Below are positions 38,114-49,100 of a DNA stretch of 64,000 bases, piece after piece. The position numbers were made by a program, and so were the translations under genes. Position 1 is the first letter of the stretch; every line of letters begins with the position of its first letter. Source of the DNA: Nannochloropsis salina CCMP1776 (taxonomy: Eukaryota; Sar; Eustigmatophyceae; Eustigmatales; Monodopsidaceae). The notes below the pieces were generated by a model. That model did not search any database and was not told where the DNA came from. It was given only the letters and a program-made list of their open reading frames with translations. The stretch covers positions 1,709-65,708 of the forward strand of contig SDOX01000153.1 of assembly GCA_004565275.1 (NCBI GenBank), read 5' to 3'.

Positions 38114-38209
38114 TGCTATTCCCGGGCTCACCTATGGGGATTGCCGACGGCATCGCCTTAGGCTGCTATTCCCTGGCTCACCTATGGGGATTGCCGACGG
38201 CATCGCCTT
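38114..38209. repeat. 50-bp tandem duplication
   Basis: The segment tgctattccc(g/t)ggctca followed by cctatggggattgccgacgg and catcgcctt occurs at 38114-38159 and again at 38164-38209, with one difference. Confidence 0.95.
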
Positions 38210-38546: not shown

Positions 38547-40995
38547 ATGGACAATTTGGAATACAGGAGAGTAGTTCGAGTGGCGCACTTGGGAGCCGGC
38601 AACAAGAAACAAGAAGACATTTGCGAAGTAAGCGTGGTGGTGAGACCGTTACTATCGAATCTATCTGAAGAACGGCTGCTCCAAATCGTCAAAACTGTCG
38701 TATCCTCGATCAATTGGGGTTCAGAGCGACCAGCAACGGCGGAAGGTAGCTGTGGCAGGTAAGCTACATGCTGGAGAGAAGCCTCTGTCCGCATTGAGAG
38801 CGAACCACGCACGTATTCTCACCTTATAAACGCTCAAAAAGGCTACAATGGCTTTAGGGGAAGGGATGAGGATAGAAGTAGACTGTGTTTTTGGCATTAC
38901 TAATCGCAAGATTCAAGATTTTCCCGCACTATGACGCAGCAAATTAGGCTAGTTCATGCTTCTTGCTCAACATTTACCAAACAGTGCAACTTCAGCCTCA
39001 AGTACTGGCAATGAGGTGACGTTGTCGTATCCAACTCAGATGCCAGGGACGCGGCCTTTCTCGGCAAGTCCGGTCAAGATAGATAATGTTGGCAGCCATG
39101 TTCACGTAGACACGTTGCTAATTATAGATGATGAGCAAAGTACAAATGCAAGTCAGGGGCTAGGAGCTACCGAAGACATCATCCATGCTGATCGACCCCG
39201 CAAGGAGAATACTTTGGAGAGTAATCGCGTTGACCGTGACAGAGGGGAGTGCGGCCAAGAGAAGCAATTTCAGGATGACGAGCTGCTTTCATGTCATAGG
39301 CTCGAAGACTCGACATCAATGCTGAACATCGGTTCAATGGGGAAGCTGCGTTCGCACGCGGGTGTTGCTCTGTCAAGAAGCAGCGCGGACGCGGGTGGCG
39401 AGGGGCTTCGTCGTGGGCGAAAAGGCGCGTCTTTGAGCACGCTCAAATCTTGCGAATTTTGCTCGCTTAAAAAGATGAAATGCGACCGAAACCTGCCCTG
39501 CAAAGCTTGTCTTACGCGGAAACAAATTTGCGAGTACCGAGAGCGGAAGCGTCGTCTCCCTCAAGGCAAGAGGTCTTCCTCCCCTCCTAAGATTGTCAGG
39601 CGGGCAGGTCCTCCCATTGTGCCGGCCGCGGTGGCTTCCAAGCCGGACTTTTCCTCTTCTACTATCGGCTTATTTTCTCAATCGACATACAGCGGAGGAA
39701 GATCGACAAGCGAGCTTGCCATAGGACTCAGGGATAGACGCGAAGGTGGCTTGGCCGCGAGCACGCAAGAATTTGCAAGCCGCGAGCAATTCGCAGAAAC
39801 AGATCCCAGGGCTTATTTCCACAGGGGAGCACTCGACACTGAGGTCGTGATTAGAGAGGATCATGCCATCCTGACAAACGACAGTGCTTCTGAGGCCTCC
39901 CTCCCCTTGCGAGATGGAACGTCGATGCCAAGAAGTGACGTCATCAGGACATGGCTTTCTGGTAAGGCAGCTATTCACCCATCGCCAACAACACGACAGG
40001 AAGGACAGCTTACTGAGGCTTCCCTCCCTTTGCGAGATGGAACGTCGATGCCAAGAAGTGACGTCATCAGGACATGGCGTTCTGGTAAGGCAGCTATTCA
40101 CCCATCGCCAACAACACGACAGGAAGGACAGCTTACTGAGGCTTCCCTCCCTTTGCGAGATGGAACGTCGGTGCCAAGAAGTGACGTCATCAGGACATGG
40201 CGTTCTGGTAAGGCAGCTATTCACCCATCCCCAAGAACACGGTGGGAGGCGAGAGGGCAGACAGAGATTGTCAGTAGGCATCGCGACGCAAACGAGGAAA
40301 GTATGGAGCCATCTCTCCGACGCTACCGGGGGAAGCACCACTCCCATCTATCACTTCCTGCGGAGGCCCTAAACGTGGCGGATCGCGAGGTTGCTGCGTT
40401 GACAGAGATGACACCGACCCTGATGTGGAGCGTGATGGATGAAAATCCATCTATCCTATCAGGCCACATGACCGGGGCTCCAGAGGAGGACAGCGGCGGT
40501 GGAAGGGCACGGCCTAGCCCGCAACGCACCATCGGCGTGGAGGACGGTCCCCCCACATCCCCTCACACATTTCCTAGCATTGCAGCTTTCGAAACGGTAG
40601 ATAGATCGGCAAAAACTCCGAGGACCCGTCAGAAGGAGCATCAGCACTCTACCAAGCACGAGCGGGAGGAATCAGTTGAAAGAGACGACATTTGGGAGGG
40701 TGAACAATACCAGGACCAGTCGAGACATTTGCAACAGTCGAACGATGATTCAGAGCGCTCGAATTCTCAGAGAGGTGTTCAATGGCAGATGTCAAGTCCT
40801 GGCTCAGCCGGTTCCACCTCCCCTTCCTCTTTCATTCTGTCATTCCCGACTACTGAAGATATGAATAAAAACGTGAACACATTTCGAGCGCGAGAATTGA
40901 CCACAGACGCAAATGATAACGGTCTGCAAGTGGAAATCTCTTTTCTTGATCCTTGGAGAAGACTGGATGCCATGAACGCGTCAAATCAAGGCTGA
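38547..40995 (+). CDS. Zn(II)2Cys6 transcription factor, copy 1
   Basis: Two exons, 38547-38758 and 38985-40995, joined within an AGT codon (740 residues). The N-terminal exon holds a small unknown domain (EVSVVVRPLLSNLSEERLLQ). Residues about 227-253 form a complete Gal4-type binuclear cluster with spacing C-x2-C-x6-C-x5-C-x2-C-x6-C (SCEFCSLKKMKCDRN then LPCKACLTRKQIC), followed by the basic linker YRERKRRLPQGKR. Residues about 374-496 are three 41-residue repeats (core LPLRDGTSMPRSDVIRTW). Then come a conserved-looking helix AALTEMTPTLMWSVMDENP and a Gln/Ser/Glu-rich tail suited to activation. Zn2Cys6 factors are mainly fungal but are known in Nannochloropsis. Intron position and phase are the same as in copy 2, so they are paralogs. 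No GGGA arrays are present. Confidence 0.88.
39892..40260 (+). repeat. Three in-frame 123-bp coding repeats (copy 1)
   Basis: Units start at 39892, 40015 and 40138 with an exact 123-bp period (41 codons); the third loses similarity near its end. Each includes tgacgtca (39936-39943, 40059-40066, 40182-40189). Confidence 0.95.
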
Positions 40996-42585
40996 GGTCG
41001 TGGTATCTCAAATGGAGTGCGGACGGTCGGATTTGTTGGAATTAGCGGAAGTCGGAGCTCTTACGGCAATGAAAAAAAAGTAAGGAAAGTGCGATGTTTT
41101 GCAATTCCGGCACACCATTTCGTTGTTTAACTCTTTGAAACGCGGAATATAGCTAGACATCAATTACACGTGTCAAAAGACGCTTGCAAACTGCATAGGA
41201 GGAAGATACCCTGCTCTGTCTTACTCACCTTTTTTGTTTGCCAAAAAGTCATCCCTTCGCGTCGTAAAAAGCGATTTATAAGCCAAACTAAAATAAGAAC
41301 GGATACAGGAAGGTGCAAGACAAAATTAAATACGGCACTTTTGATTCAATTCAGAATCTCATTTTTGCAAGTCAAAGGACGCACGCGTCTTTTTCAATTA
41401 TCGATTAACTCGGCCCCATCTAGATTCCTTTCACTAACCAATTCCAGTACATGCAAATCCTTTAAGGATATTTGCATTTTTAGGCTCATCTGAAAGATTG
41501 AAATATGTGCTGCCTAGAATTAAGACAAACGGTACAGAACCTCATAGAGCTTTGTCACGAAATTTTAGGTAAACGTGAGCCAATGACCGCCGCTAAAAAA
41601 GCTATTGATTCATATTGATGTTGAACTTAATGCTTGTGTCGGCTATCAATAAGTGCTAAAGAAACAGACGAGTCTTGAGCGAAAACGATAGGACACAATT
41701 GTGAACTGTAATTCAGAAAGTGGAGAAATACTCATGCTACATTTTTATCCAATGTCTCGGAAGCTTATTGCCATGTATTTTGTAGATCTTCATACGTGAT
41801 ACCATTTTGTCGCTTTCGTAATCCCTATAACCGTCATATGTGGTCGAGTTTGTCTTTCTCCCTCTTGAAGAGATTATCTTATCACGAGGCGAGTGACCGG
41901 CGGTACAAGGAATGAAGGCCGCTGCTAAAGTGGTATTTTTATGCGTTGTATGTGTCGGGCAAATAACCGAGGGAAAGGAGGTCAATCGAAGCCCTGGATC
42001 ACCTTTGGGACTGTATATGGCAGGATACGTACGGAGCACTTTCCTTGTCTTTCCTCAACAGGAGACGAAACTGTCCCCCATCCCTACCCATTCAAGGTTT
42101 TTTTTGACGCCCTATCCGCCGACTTAGGCGACCCCTATATGTTGCGTTGTCGTGGACATGTTTACGCGTCTGATATCATCCAGAGCGCACTTACATGTAA
42201 TAACGCGCTATTTCCGTTCTATTTCCGAAAACCCGAACTGAGGACCTGTCGTCAAGACAATGAGGACCCCAAACCGGGATTTGAGCAATTTTAAGTGTAT
42301 TTTGGATGTTTGAGATTGATTGAACACGGTACAGGAACTTGGATAGTGGCCGTTCTCATGTCTTCCGCCATAATATGAATATAAACTTTTCAGGTCTCAT
42401 TTTTCCAATTATTGCGCAACAAGAAAGTGACCTGTGCTGCCTAAGGGGCTCCCGAACCCCGGCTCGGTGTTTATGCGTACGAATGAAAGAATAAGATGTC
42501 GGTGCACTTGGGTGCGATGCGGCCTTTTCGACTGTAAGATTATTCAACATTCAGATAAATAACGAAATATATCGCAGGTCAGGTG
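40996..42585. other. AT-rich spacer between the two Zn2Cys6 genes
   Basis: About 1.6 kb without a confident gene. A plus-strand ATG frame at 41912-42127 begins MKAAAKVVFLCVVCVGQITE, which resembles a short signal peptide, but the rest is unsupported. No GGGA arrays. Confidence 0.5.
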
Positions 42586-45243
42586 ATGGAGTTGTCGAAT
42601 CCAGGTTCGAGTTCGCTCACGGAACAGAAATCTACGATTCGAGTGATGCGTGAAGGGCAGGGCAGCATGGAAGTAGTGGATGTGTGCACAGTATCAGTGC
42701 GGGTACAAGCACCTCGTGGTTTTGCAAAGGAATACATTATCAGTGTCATCGAAGCTGCCTTGGCATCTTTTGGCAATCAGGGAGAACAAAGTTTGGCTAC
42801 GGGTTCAGAATCCCATCACAGGTAAGGGAATACACCTCGCTTCAGGATCCCTGTCATCGCTGCATTTACTGCTGCCTAGGCGACGTAGATGATGTTACAC
42901 CCATAGGACCTGATATCGACCGGGAGTCTACGCTGTATTGATTTGATAAAAGTAAAGATAAAAGATGGACGAGGGCCAGAAGGGTGTGTCTCATCATTTC
43001 TGTGGGAGATATCGCTTCACTTCACCCTTCAGCATTTACGCAATCGATAACATTCAGAGGGATGTCCCAAAAAAAGGGATGTCCCAAAGACAGCACAATT
43101 GAAAGTTCTAAATAAAGTTCTAAATACTTCGCTGAATTTAACCTTTTTCACCAACAGAAGCGACATTGATGAGGCATGTACTCCAAATTTCCATGAGATC
43201 TTTGCCGTCTCAGGAGTGCCGCTTCCTCCGGTTTCTGAACGTAAGCCTGCCCAGGAACAAAATATAATCGTCAAGCTCATAAATGTGGCTACTCGTGATA
43301 TGCGCTTGCGCAGCACCAGTCTCCGTGAAGGGAGGCGCCGTCGATCAGAGGACAGCTATGTATCCGCCAGCCCCTTCGGCTCGACGCATTGGAGTGACTC
43401 TGTCAAGGACAATACGAGTGGAAGGAGGGACGCTTGTAGCAGTAAAGAGAGGAGCAAGACTGGAAAGACAGCCGGTGACGACTTAGGTACCCATGGCCAC
43501 CCCCCTGACCATGGGGAGGAGGGCGGGTGCCTAGAGACGTGTGTGGCTGGAAGGCTTTCCTCGATATCCTCCGCTTCATCGGTTCAGTCGTTGGGAATAG
43601 AGGGTGGCATGAACACACATTTAGACTCCGGGACCGAGTCAGAAACCGATCCCTCAACTGGCCAGGTGATAGGAGGGCAAAACTGCGCACGCGAGGCTGT
43701 GGTTGGTGGTCTTGCCAGCGCCCAGCCCATCTTTTCCCTTCACCGAAGGAATGAGAGGAAGAAGCACGCGGTTCGAAAATCCTGCGAGCAATGCAGACAC
43801 AAAAGAGTGAAATGTGACGGCTTGCTTCCTTGCTCTCGTTGTAAGCACCGCGAATTGGAGTGTTTCTTCCTTGAGCGCAAACCTCGCCTCCGCCCGGGCG
43901 AGACACAGGGGAAAGCTTTTATCCCTTTGGTCATAAAACGTGCTGTTCCTCGAGCTGGGCAGAATGACCTTGCAGGGATGAAAACCACTGTGAGCGGAAG
44001 GGAGAGGCCTTCTGTGCTCGCTCAAACTGGCTGGGCCAATGACGGTGTGTGCATAGAAAGGAGGAAGACATTAAACAGCGGGGGAGCTTTAGCAGCAGCC
44101 ATGGCTCGTGAAAGTGTAGGCGCACAAAAGAGACAGGCGCCGTATGCTGCAGTTATTGCTCCTTCGCCCATGCAGGACCTCGGAGGGTCTTTAGCATTGG
44201 ATGAGGATAGCTCCCTCCCTGTTCAACACATCTTCCGTCTTTCAGAGCCACAACTAGCAGTGGACAATGGAAGTACTTCCTTGGCGAAAGAGGAGGGGCG
44301 CATCGCTTGTAGGGAGCTGGAGGAAATGCGACAGCGACGGGAGCAACGAGCATTACCCGTGCCTCCAGAGCCACCTGAAGATGAGGACGAGAACGACCGG
44401 GAGTTGGCCTTCCTCCTGGAGATGGAGCCGAGTCTCTTGAGCCCAAATGTGCGACCTGCCGCTGCCCCAGTCTTATCCTTTTACGGAGTGGCATCACCGA
44501 AAGGAGAGGATGAAGATCACGGCTTTTCCACGAGACCCGCTCTCCTCGAACCTGATCGCCCTGCCCCAGCGTGGCCGATCTCCCTCTCATTAGGGGTTAC
44601 GGACACGAAACAGGAAAGACAGCTTACTGAGGCTTCCCTTCCTTTGCGAGATGGAATGTCGATGCCAAGAAGTGACGTCATCAGGACATGGCGTTCTGGT
44701 AAGGCAGCTATTCACCCATCGCCAACAACACGACAGGAAGGACAGCTTACTGAGGCTTCCCTCCCTTTGCGAGATGGAACGTCGGTGCCAAGAAGTGACG
44801 TCATCAGGACATGGCGTTCTGGTAAGGCAGCTATTCACCCATCCCCAAGAACACAATGGGAGGCGAGAGGGCAGACAGAGATTGTCAGTAGGCATCGCGA
44901 CGCAAACGAGGAAAGTATGGAGCCATCTCTCCGACGCTACCGGGGGAAGCACCACTCCCATCTATCACTTCCTGCGGAGGCCCTAAACGTGGCGGATCGC
45001 GAGGTTGCTGCGTTGACAGAGATGACACCGACCCTGATGTGGAGCGTGATGGATGAAAATCCATCTATCCTATCAGGCCACATGACCGGGGCTCCAGAGA
45101 AGGACAGCGGCGGTGGAAGGGCACGGCCTGGCCCGCAAAGCACCATTAACGTAAAGTACAGCCCCCCTACCTTCTATTTCGCACGACCACGCGTTGTAGA
45201 CATTAGACAGAAAGGGCTGTACGATGCCGAGAGCCCTGTCTGA
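42586..45243 (+). CDS. Zn(II)2Cys6 transcription factor, copy 2
   Basis: Two exons, 42586-42821 and 43158-45243, joined in the same phase as copy 1 (773 residues). The N-terminal exon has VVDVCTVSVRVQAPRGF, faintly like copy 1. The binuclear cluster is at about residues 288-314 (SCEQCRHKRVKCDGL then LPCSRCKHRELEC) with the basic flank LERKPRLRPGE. A segment DRELAFLLEMEPSLLS near residue 430 resembles copy 1's DREVAALTEMTPTLMW. Further downstream, from about 44614, the protein repeats that region again as a nearly identical copy of copy 1's C-terminal half, including two 41-residue repeats. It then ends abruptly in a short unrelated tail (KGLYDAESPV). The cluster sequences of the two copies differ at most non-Cys positions, so the shared patch is far younger than the gene duplication. 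Confidence 0.88.
44629..44874 (+). repeat. Two in-frame 123-bp coding repeats (copy 2)
   Basis: Units start at 44629 and 44752, period 123 bp; they correspond to units 2 and 3 of copy 1 at a constant offset of 4614 bp. Each contains tgacgtca (44673-44680, 44796-44803). Confidence 0.95.
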
Positions 45244-46130
45244 ATCACCGTCGACGGAGGCTCCCATGCTCTATCGCCTTGATTCTTGAAGCATGTGAGT
45301 CGCACGACTCCGTCGTACCTTCGACCTTTTTCTTTTTACTGTATCATTCCCAGCTGTTGGCACCGAGATAGGAGGAGAACAATGCTACGATGCTAGCGAT
45401 GGAGACGAGCCCGCAGAAGTCAGGACAGCAGGCTAGTGAAGATGACAAACAGGCCTCTATAAACTCCATACCCATGAAGACACGTGCCCGAATGCGGTAT
45501 GATGGATAGAACGATTGCGAGGAGTGCAAGAGCGGGTAAGGTTTGTGTAGGATATAGGGGAGGCCGTGGTGATGGCGCGGGGACAAGGTGTATAAGGAGG
45601 AGCTGAAATATAGCGAGGTCCATGAGGAAAAAGCCATGAATAAAATGACTTCAACCAAAAAACAAGACAAAAAGATGTGAGTCACTTACTTGGAAGGGGA
45701 GAACAAAGCGAGCGATAGGCTCGAGGTCTGAGGAAAGGGAGGACGCGGAAAGGGATATCCGAGGAGAGTGCATCTGCATCTACATCAACGCCGCCATGAT
45801 TAAAAGCGATGAAAATTAAAAACTTCCGAACCACCTACACTTGATTCTTATGACGTGATGATGTAGAGCATACTACAGAGAAAAAGGTCGGGGGAGAAAG
45901 ACTACTGTGGCTGGAAAAAGACCTAGTTTCACATCAACGCGTGTGAAATTAGGTCAGTACTGAGGACACATTTCGCTGCTTAAATCCACTTTTCAGAAGA
46001 ATATAGAGACACTCATGTCTCTCCAGTGGCAAGAGGATACGGTTGACATCTTACACTCGACTGACTACTTTCATTTGTGAATCTCTTCCATCTACGTCCA
46101 TTTCTTTCTTTGCCTTCCCACATTTGCATA
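45244..46130. other. Convergent spacer, Zn2Cys6 copy 2 / ABC-class ATPase
   Basis: No recognisable gene. Contains a 14-bp inverted repeat with a G-U pair (arms 45920-45933 and 45942-45955, cctagtttcaca / tgtgaaattagg), possibly a 3' UTR structure. Confidence 0.5.
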
Positions 46131-49100
46131 TCACGCCTCGGATGAGGGCAAAATTTCGCTTCTCGCCTGCAGCGACCGAAATCGATTCAAGGCGGCCGCG
46201 ATTTCGAATCTTCTAGGTCTGGCCAGATTTCCCACGGCCTGCGCCCGCCCATGCTCATGTCTTCCCTCGCCTCCCCCCACGAGGGCGTCGAGCCCATCCT
46301 CCATGCACCGCTCGATTGCGCTCACGCCTTCTCGCAGAGAGAGACGGGGATCCAGTCGGGCCATGGCCTGGAAGGCGAAGCCAATGGCCCGCGTCTGGCC
46401 AATCTAGGGGCGAGGCCCGGGGGAGGCAAAGGAAGAGGGCAGTCACACGGGGGGGGAGGGGGGCGTGGAGAGAACGGAATAGGAAATAAGCGCGACCGTT
46501 TCGAGTGTTCGAGGCACAAAAGGCAGAGGGGGACGGGAAAGAGGGTCATCTGAGAACAAGGGAAGAGGATACTTGGTCGGTCCATCCCGCCAAGCCGCAA
46601 GACGTGAGAATATCAGCACAAGGGCGGTTGAAAGAAGCAACCTAAGCACACCAGACGATGATACTAGTTCCTCAACCTAAGCACACCAGACAGGGATAAC
46701 CCGACCCTAGCAGAAGCAAAAGCTCACCTCCACGAGCTGCTCGACCCCCGACAGGTCCACATCTTCCTCCCCGTACTGAAGCTTGTCCTTCCCGCGGGCG
46801 ACCACCTTCCCCTGCGAGGAAGAAGCGAGCGCGTGTAGGGGAGGAAAGGGGTAGATGAAGACTCGTGTCAGCACCACAGCGAGGTGCGACGGAGAGAGGT
46901 AGAACGACTGGGACGAGGCCTGGCATTTGCCCACCCACAGAACATCTCACGCATCCTTTGAGTGTGCGACCCCTCTCTCGGCCTGGCTCCCTCTTCCCTC
47001 ACCTCTGTCCTCAGGGAGGCGGGCACAGGCAACCGACGCGAGAGAGTGCCGAAGTGAGGGGCGAAGAAGGAGGTGCCGGCCGAGGAGGAGTACTGGTCGG
47101 CGATGGCCTTCGCTGCCACAGTCTGTGTCCGGGGCGGCAGCCAGAGGGATGGGGCGATGAGGTTGAGCGCGACGGAGGATTGAGAGGCGAAGGGTGGGGA
47201 CAGGGGTGTGAGTGACTCGAGGGCAGGAGGCCTCGATCGAGGGGATACAAGGCTCAGAGAAAGGGAAAGAAGGGAAGGCAGGAAGGGTATGGGGCGACAT
47301 CGGTATAGCAACGATGTCGATGTCTCCTTGGTTGGCTGGAGAGAGGGAAAGGGGGAGGAGAAAAGGGAGAAAAGCACATACACGCCTATACCCAAAAGAG
47401 GGAAGAAAGAAAAGAAGGGAGGGAGGAAGGAAAGAAGGTGGGAGGGAGGGAGGAAGGAAAGAAGGTGGGAGGGAGGGAGGGAGGGACCGGCAGACCTTGT
47501 CGAGGGGCGTGTAGTTATCCATCATGATGACGGTATCGGCCACCTCGAAGTAATCGCCCGCCCCGCCGATGACAAGGAGGGAGGAGACTCCATGCTGGGT
47601 GTAAAGCGCTTGGACCTGAGGGAGGGAGGGAGGGAGGGAGGGAGGGAGGGAGGGAGGGAGCGGGGGGGAAGGAAAGGTGGAAGTAAAATGAGAGCGTCCG
47701 CGCGTGGGGAGCGTGAGTAAGAAAGGAGAAAGGAGGGGGCAAAAGCGTCACCTTGGCGAGAAAGGGAGTGATGGGCTCTTTGTCCTTGGAGACAAGGAGC
47801 TGCATCCTAAGGTCGCGAATCATGAAGTTGGTGGCACACGTGTCCTCATCCATGAGGAGCACCTGGGCGCCGACCTGAGGGCGAATGTCAGGGGGTGCGA
47901 GGGGGAGGCCGGGAGAAGAAGGGGAGATGGGACAGAGAGAGACGCGGGGGGCGGGTTGAGAGATGTTGGTTGAATGGGAGTGATGAGGAATGCGTTGATT
48001 GAATGGAAGTGATGAAAGATACGTTGATCGAATGGGAGTGATGAGGAATACGTTAATAGAATGGGAGTGATGAAAGATGCGTTGGTTGAATGGGAGTGAT
48101 GAAAGATGCGTTGATTGAATGGGAGTGATAAGGAATACGTTGATCAAATCAGTGAGGAAAGGGCGGGGTCAGCGTGCGCCGGGGCGACAGGTCGAGGAGG
48201 GGCGTAAGAATCCCACAGCTACCTCGAGGGCTTCGATGATGCTGGCAGCCTGGGAGGTGGAGCCTGAGGCGTCCGCGGTGCAAAAGCTGTCGGTGCGCTT
48301 CCCGAAGGGCAGGTTGTCGATGAACGGCGTGATGTTCACCTTGGGGGTGGGAGGGAGAGGAATGCTGGACGTCAGAACCCTTGGAAAGACGTACGTGCCG
48401 CCTTGACTTAGGTTGCACTCCATCGATTACTGACGTCGAAACGCGTGGCTTGGCGTGATATTCCATCATTTCCACCGGCCCCTGTCCTCGACGTCCCCCG
48501 CAAGTTCCTTTTTGCCCCCCTCCCTCCCCGCCCCTCTTCCTCCGTCCCTACCTCCGTGACCGCCCGGCCATCTTCAGCCCTCACTTTTACAGCACTGGGG
48601 TCCACGCACACGAATTCCCGCCCGTCCCCGGGGATGTGGTTGTGGATGCCTAACTCCAGTGCTTGCAGGAGCTGGGGGGGGGGGATACAGGGGGAGGCGG
48701 CGCCAAGTGAGTAAGGAGCAAAAGGTGCGGGGGCAATAGAAATAGAACGGGAAGGAGAAAAAGAGCGACGACCGATAGCTTTGTGCTCGGAAAGGAGGGG
48801 AAAGAGAGGGAGGAAAGCGGAGAGGGAAGGCGGGGAGGCCTGACCGTGCTTTTCCCATGGAAGCCCCCGCCGACGATGAGGGTGATGCCCTTGGGTATTC
48901 CCATGCCTTTCATCTTCCCCGCATTGGGCAGCGTCACCTCTCGCTCCAGGGTAGGGGGCGACTGGAAGGGGAGGGCGGTGGCGGCGTCCATGGGCTGGTC
49001 CACGTGGCCGGACTTTCGGGGCAAGAGGGCGCCGTTCCGAATAAAGCCGACGAGGCCCGCCGATGGGAGGAGGGAGCGGAGTACTTCCTGGTCCTCCACG

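Follow-up and report, generated by a model that had tools for sequence, protein, structure and literature searches.

A young coding patch in two old tandem Zn2Cys6 paralogues of Nannochloropsis salina, probably transferred by non-allelic gene conversion

The stretch analyzed here (hereafter the window) comprises 64,000 nucleotides of Nannochloropsis salina CCMP1776 (assembly GCA_004565275.1, contig SDOX01000153.1, positions 1709 to 65,708 of the forward strand), contains no N, and has a GC content of 0.54. It carries two neighboring genes predicted to encode Zn2Cys6 (zinc cluster) proteins, copy 1 and copy 2, which have in common a nearly identical patch of coding sequence (Table 1). Both predicted genes show the same layout, namely, two exons and one phase-2 intron, and both translations contain the cluster pattern CX2CX6CX5CX2CX6C. 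In a Pfam scan (E up to 1) that covered exon 2 of both copies and exon 1 of copy 2, the zinc cluster was the only match in exon 2 of either copy, and exon 1 of copy 2 gave only a sub-threshold match to DUF7436 (14.1 bits against a cut-off of 34.2). For either copy, a role in binding DNA or in controlling transcription is putative. The exon-1 proteins aligned with a score of 66, which was reached by 0 of 5000 shuffles, and the exon-2 regions before the patch aligned through the zinc cluster with a score reached by 0 of 2000 shuffles; no similarity was detected in the interval between the zinc cluster and the patch (1799 of 2000 shuffles reached the score). Because the exon-1 and zinc-cluster regions align and both copies hold PF00172 above its cut-off, the two genes are, as judged from their sequences, old tandem paralogues, now near saturation at synonymous sites. 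When exon 2 of copy 2 was searched as protein against the genome (E up to 10), only these two genes matched. A further protein search of the genome likewise gave supported matches only between these two, the next hits being on C30 (E = 0.11) and C29 (E = 0.65).

Table 1. Features of the two predicted Zn2Cys6 genes and of the patch they have in common (positions in the window)
Feature	Position	Strand	Remarks
Copy 1 exon 1	38547..38758	+	ATG at 38547; phase-2 donor GTAAGC at 38759
Copy 1 exon 2 to stop	38985..40995	+	740-residue protein with exon 1; gene model predicted
Copy 1 Zn2Cys6 cluster	39448..39555	+	PF00172, 28 bits, cut-off 21
Copy 1 repeat array	39886..40241	+	2.9 units of 123 bp (41 residues): U1 (degenerate start), U2, U3
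Patch, copy 1 side	40000..40531	+	Units U2 and U3 plus 290 bases of non-repeat coding sequence
Motif DREVAALTEMTPTLM of the patch, copy 1	40381..40425	+	
Old in-register homology past the 3' edge, copy 1 side	40532..40591	+	pS 0.607, pN 0.399 over 40531-40590
Copy 2 exon 1	42586..42821	+	ATG at 42586; phase-2 donor GTAAGG at 42822
Copy 2 exon 2 to stop	43158..45243	+	773-residue protein with exon 1; gene model predicted
Copy 2 Zn2Cys6 cluster	43780..43884	+	PF00172, 34.6 bits, cut-off 21
Copy 2 upstream motif DRELAFLLEMEPSLL	44395..44439	+	Possibly copy 2's own version
Copy 2 repeat array	44610..44854	+	2.0 units of 123 bp: V2, V3
Patch, copy 2 side	44614..45145	+	524 of 532 bases identical to 40000-40531
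DRE motif within the patch, copy 2 (its second)	44995..45039	+	
Unconverted C-terminal 32 codons and stop, copy 2	45146..45243	+	Old in-register homology to copy 1 persists over the first ~60 bases

At a constant offset of 4614 bases, positions 40000 to 40531 of copy 1 and 44614 to 45145 of copy 2 differ at exactly 8 of 532 bases, which agrees with the preliminary description of this DNA, where about 8 differences had been reported. Identity at this offset is 94 to 100% in all ten 50-base bins of 40001 to 40500 and only 14 to 22% in the three bins of 39851 to 40000 directly upstream. A BLAST search of the window against itself extended the match to 39991-40556 and 44603-45170 (566 and 568 bases, a difference of 2; 96.7% identity), which was the longest of its eight matches. 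On a codon alignment of both genes, a GENECONV-like segment score of 498 was obtained, whereas none of 2000 permutations exceeded 27. The patch lies in predicted coding exons of both copies, and the reading frame is identical and open across both edges. Genome-wide DNA match counts are lower bounds; with patch DNA as the query, at least three matches were found in the 26.5-Mb genome, namely, both patches and, in copy 1, the additional repeat unit. A dispersed or mobile repeat is ruled out, since no further locus matching the patch DNA was found in this genome. In sequence searches, the patch matched neither a solved structure (E up to 10) nor a Pfam family (E up to 1). In collections without a related eukaryote, 219 pattern matches of the patch to genome contigs and 12 of copy 2 exon 2 to viral contigs were obtained, and none of either set was confirmed.

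Nei-Gojobori-style counting without multiple-hit correction gave proportions of synonymous (pS) and non-synonymous (pN) differences of 0.015 each over the 177 codons of the patch, with two synonymous and six non-synonymous changes. Outside the patch, the values were 0.605 and 0.498 for 63 codons of exon 1 and 0.758 and 0.436 for 69 codons around the zinc cluster, both blocks being short and picked because they are alignable. The strong divergence of the zinc clusters and N-terminal exons that had been described earlier is thus borne out. The preliminary description had also proposed a recent ectopic transfer and named synonymous divergence inside and outside the patch as a check; this comparison, 0.015 against 0.605 and 0.758, favors a recent transfer and supports it strongly. 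Because synonymous sites are as alike as non-synonymous ones, the identity of the patch is, by these counts, a matter of young DNA and not of constrained protein.

The 5' half of the patch proved to be a 123-bp tandem repeat, which had been missed before. Within copy 1, U2 and U3 differ at 3 of 123 positions, and at the three diagnostic sites that separate them V2 is identical to U2 and V3 to U3. In register, U2-U3 and V2-V3 show 4 differences in 242 bases, compared with 9 in 226 when the units are shifted by one. Because the order is kept in V2 and V3 at the diagnostic sites, U2 and U3 are, on this pattern, older than the transfer. The third, degenerate-edged unit, U1, is present only in copy 1.

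The two edges of the patch differ in character. Past the 3' edge, in-register matches run at 18 of 30 bases, then 14 of 30, and then 6 of 30 farther downstream. Among 187,220 frame-matched placements, 17 reached the level of the first 30 bases and 7 that of the first 60 (32 of 60); these placements overlap, and the fractions are not p values. The 20 codons past this edge resemble exon 1 in their divergence (pS 0.607 and pN 0.399). Gapped local alignment with stricter scoring of the 49 bases past the edge gave no signal (342 of 500 shuffles reached the score), nor did local alignment of the whole tails as DNA (296 of 500), and the 3'-edge homology is seen in the in-register comparison only. At this edge, coding sequence related to that of copy 1 was probably present in copy 2 before the transfer. 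The preliminary description had the original C-terminus of copy 2 replaced; since the terminal 32 codons (45146-45243) are copy 2's own and probably already related to copy 1, that wording is not supported. No relic of the tail of copy 1 was found after the stop of copy 2, either in translations of 45146-46600 in all six frames, where 90 to 294 of 300 shuffles reached the score, or as DNA, where 296 of 500 and 55 of 200 did. The 5' end is abrupt and falls inside the repeat array as it is arranged in copy 1. Only 13 of 60 bases match there, a level reached by 150,001 of the 187,220 placements, and no homology was detected; local alignment of the 5' flanks likewise detected none (96 of 500 shuffles). 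If a gap of 2 bases is introduced, 7 of 12 bases match, in the region where the BLAST match extends to 39991.

The non-repeat part of the patch contains the DRE motif DREVAALTEMTPTLM, and copy 2 has a similar motif, DRELAFLLEMEPSLL, upstream of the patch, at 44395. The two have 9 of 15 residues in common, and shuffling equaled the local-alignment score of the motif region in 5 of 2000 cases. The stretches flanking the motif showed no similarity either before (1858 of 3000 shuffles) or after it (1599 of 3000). The upstream motif lies 178 residues from the zinc cluster in copy 2; the distance in copy 1 is 284 residues, or approximately 165 without the repeat array. With moderate support, DRELAFLLEMEPSLL may represent the form of the motif native to copy 2. 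The earlier claim that copy 2 retains an older version of part of the region upstream of the patch may hold for the motif itself; nothing alignable was found around it. Five other PF00172 loci (the ten PF00172 matches of the genome minus this pair and three partial matches; approximately 3.1 kb each, the frames of four of the five being cut) gave no support for DRE motifs, the lowest of the ten tests being L010 with the copy 2 motif (17 of 300 shuffles). A simple 9aaTAD regular expression matches TLMWSVMDE in the patch, but it matches six times per protein and was given no weight. In zinc-cluster regulators, activation regions are situated away from the zinc cluster, and by analogy we infer that a disordered region serving regulation or activation is the likeliest identity of the moved module.

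Four of the eight core differences fall in repeat units and can be polarized by the other units; in all four, the derived base is in copy 2. Because of this and of the third unit found only in copy 1, we infer that copy 1 was likely the donor and copy 2 the recipient, with which the spacing of the upstream motif of copy 2 is also consistent. The same direction had been put forward in the preliminary description, and these three lines of evidence favor it rather than establish it. At seven of the eight core differences, copy 1 has G/C where copy 2 has A/T (sign test, p = 0.07). The same bias is found up to 40546 (14 of 15; p = 0.001) and up to 40561 (17 of 20; p = 0.003), end points that were picked post hoc and that take in differences past 40531 which are probably old divergence. 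Three adjacent double differences are GG in copy 1 and AA in copy 2 (40241-40242, 40534-40535, and 40539-40540), and two of these sit just beyond the 3' edge. Transfer alone does not predict such a one-way excess, which would be expected from mutagenic repair synthesis or from a higher rate of change in copy 2.

Recent non-allelic (ectopic) gene conversion between two old Zn2Cys6 paralogues, with copy 1 the most likely donor, is in our judgment a highly probable explanation of these results. An old duplication would have given the tandem paralogues, with their similar exon 1, same-phase intron, and same kind of zinc cluster. Much later, approximately 530 bp of exon 2, encoding two 41-residue repeats and approximately 97 further residues, would have been copied between them with the frame kept. 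The 3' end of the tract would then fall within coding sequence that was already homologous but diverged, and the 5' end abruptly within a repeat array of the copy 1 type, with no clear homology beyond it except for a few bases. Gene conversion accounts for the low divergence, the preserved frame, and the way the tract ends on its 3' side; for the 5' edge and the doubled motif, a one-sided route closed by end joining would serve about equally well. Several points weigh against this explanation. The polarized sample is small (n = 4), and the 7-of-8 bias by itself gives p = 0.07; moreover, age and direction were judged from the two copies of one genome. The present flanks have no long runs of identity that could seed homologous strand invasion, and two-sided conversion would need a tract that was formerly more alike, failing which a one-sided or end-joining route would be required. 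Finally, the eight differences are unevenly spread: the outermost 50 bases at each end hold three apiece, and the remaining 432 bases hold one adjacent pair, so that a single clean event is not the only reading.

This edge clustering bears directly on concerted evolution, in which the module and its repeats would have been homogenized repeatedly since the duplication, so that the patch would be the latest of several nested conversions. Of 20,000 uniform placements, 391 put the differences equally near the edges, and 44 did so when the adjacent pair was treated as a single difference; the observed eight are thus closer to the edges than in 98% of placements, a comparison made post hoc. On few differences, the clustering suggests nested tracts or mutagenic ends rather than one clean event. 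The near identity of the units within copy 1 (U2 and U3) also points to concerted evolution, and the old in-register homology at the 3' edge fits an ancestral module common to both genes. Nevertheless, mutagenic repair at the ends or chance could also produce such clustering, and we regard repeated homogenization as possible but doubtful. It is, like the segmental insertion considered below, a variant of recent transfer, and the likelihoods of both overlap with that of gene conversion.

In a segmental insertion, a 530-bp fragment of copy 1 would have been joined into exon 2 of copy 2, by one-sided repair synthesis with end joining or by template switching; copy 2's own DRE motif would have been left upstream, and a module would have been gained. 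The 5' edge without detectable homology argues for such an event, as does the second DRE-like motif in copy 2, given its similarity to the first and its comparable distance from the zinc cluster (178 against approximately 165 residues). On the other hand, the 3' edge runs in register into old homology, which is unexpected for an unrelated insertion site, and the upstream motif, with 9 of 15 residues, is unsupported on either side. We consider insertion somewhat unlikely. A more specific route is one-sided mutagenic repair synthesis, in which a break in copy 2 near the end of its C-terminal coding sequence would be followed by invasion of copy 1 through the 3'-edge homology, copying of approximately 530 bp with two repeat units, and end joining on the 5' side, with G/C to A/T changes thickest near the tract ends. 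This complete sequence of steps appears unlikely; if it did take place, a second putative activation motif would have been added to a regulator in one step.

An assembly artefact also deserves mention: short-read contigs might have been collapsed or misjoined, so that one locus acquired the patch of the other. The match (532 to 568 bp) exceeds most short-read lengths, and an N. salina CCMP1776 assembly has been described as made from Illumina and 454 reads (PMC6953503); if the present assembly is of that kind, such an error could arise. However, duplication of a contig should leave full identity and sharp edges, whereas eight sites and the number of repeat units distinguish the copies, old in-register homology continues beyond the 3' edge, both frames are open across both edges, and the window has no N; an artefact is accordingly very improbable. 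Purifying selection on a strongly conserved domain would suit a patch that is coding in both genes, but with equal pS and pN and no Pfam domain in exon 2 other than the zinc cluster, it is ruled out by the synonymous sites unless a constraint at the DNA level is invoked, and we give it practically no credence.

Gene conversion is a well-known process, ordinary in kind, and this pair would be a local example. Like non-allelic gene conversion between tandem paralogues elsewhere, it combines a short near-identical tract that includes synonymous sites with diverged neighboring sequence and a preserved frame; unlike the textbook two-sided tract, it has a 5' edge without clear homology and holds a tandem repeat. 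Recombination between paralogues likewise yielded a protein with a new combination of parts in the chimeric maltotriose transporter of Saccharomyces eubayanus (PMC6448821); function was shown there experimentally, whereas here we have sequence only, and the likely donor copy has been kept. Partial duplicates with recruitment and chimeric duplicates (PMC3449122) similarly place a coding fragment of one gene amid unique flanking coding sequence, but in the present case the hosts are old paralogues of each other in exon 1 and the zinc cluster, and only the fragment is young. A search of the literature on Nannochloropsis and gene conversion, made on titles only and not by locus name of the pair, gave, among the titles listed, none on such a gene pair. 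The pair offers a clean young case in which a module outside the zinc cluster would have moved between two old regulator paralogues. Phylogenies of the complete proteins of the two copies would mislead. Should the module prove functional, its transfer would be a testable way for the output of a regulator to change without a change in its DNA-binding cluster.

Ten Zn2Cys6 ("Fungal TRF") regulators are listed for Nannochloropsis gaditana in an account of algal regulators (PMC4827209), with which both copies here agree in having a PF00172 cluster. A six-frame search of the present genome gave ten PF00172 matches, three of them partial. The three partial matches lie in short frames within approximately 9 kb (C86:12964-21980); at locus L012, which belongs to this C86 group, there is a very cysteine-rich reading on the opposite strand, and the C86 matches may be of low complexity. 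Elsewhere in the genome, 34 light-harvesting matches (PF00504) were found. The best PDB matches of one such gene, L023, were chains named FCP-D and Fcpb5, which we take to be diatom proteins, and another, L028, matched three LHCI chains of PDB entry 9vfj with E up to 1e-40. At C6:829578-834272, light-harvesting matches on opposite strands, with 61.7 bits twice, mark a possible inverted pair kept alike, which may be a second case of homogenized neighbors. Within the window, a 46-base direct repeat (period 50, 97 to 98% identical) lies at 38114-38209, upstream of the predicted start of copy 1, and a 29-bp minisatellite with several copies occupies 47936-48167, in or beside minus-strand frames that match ABC_N and ABC_ATPase (PF20446 and PF09818).

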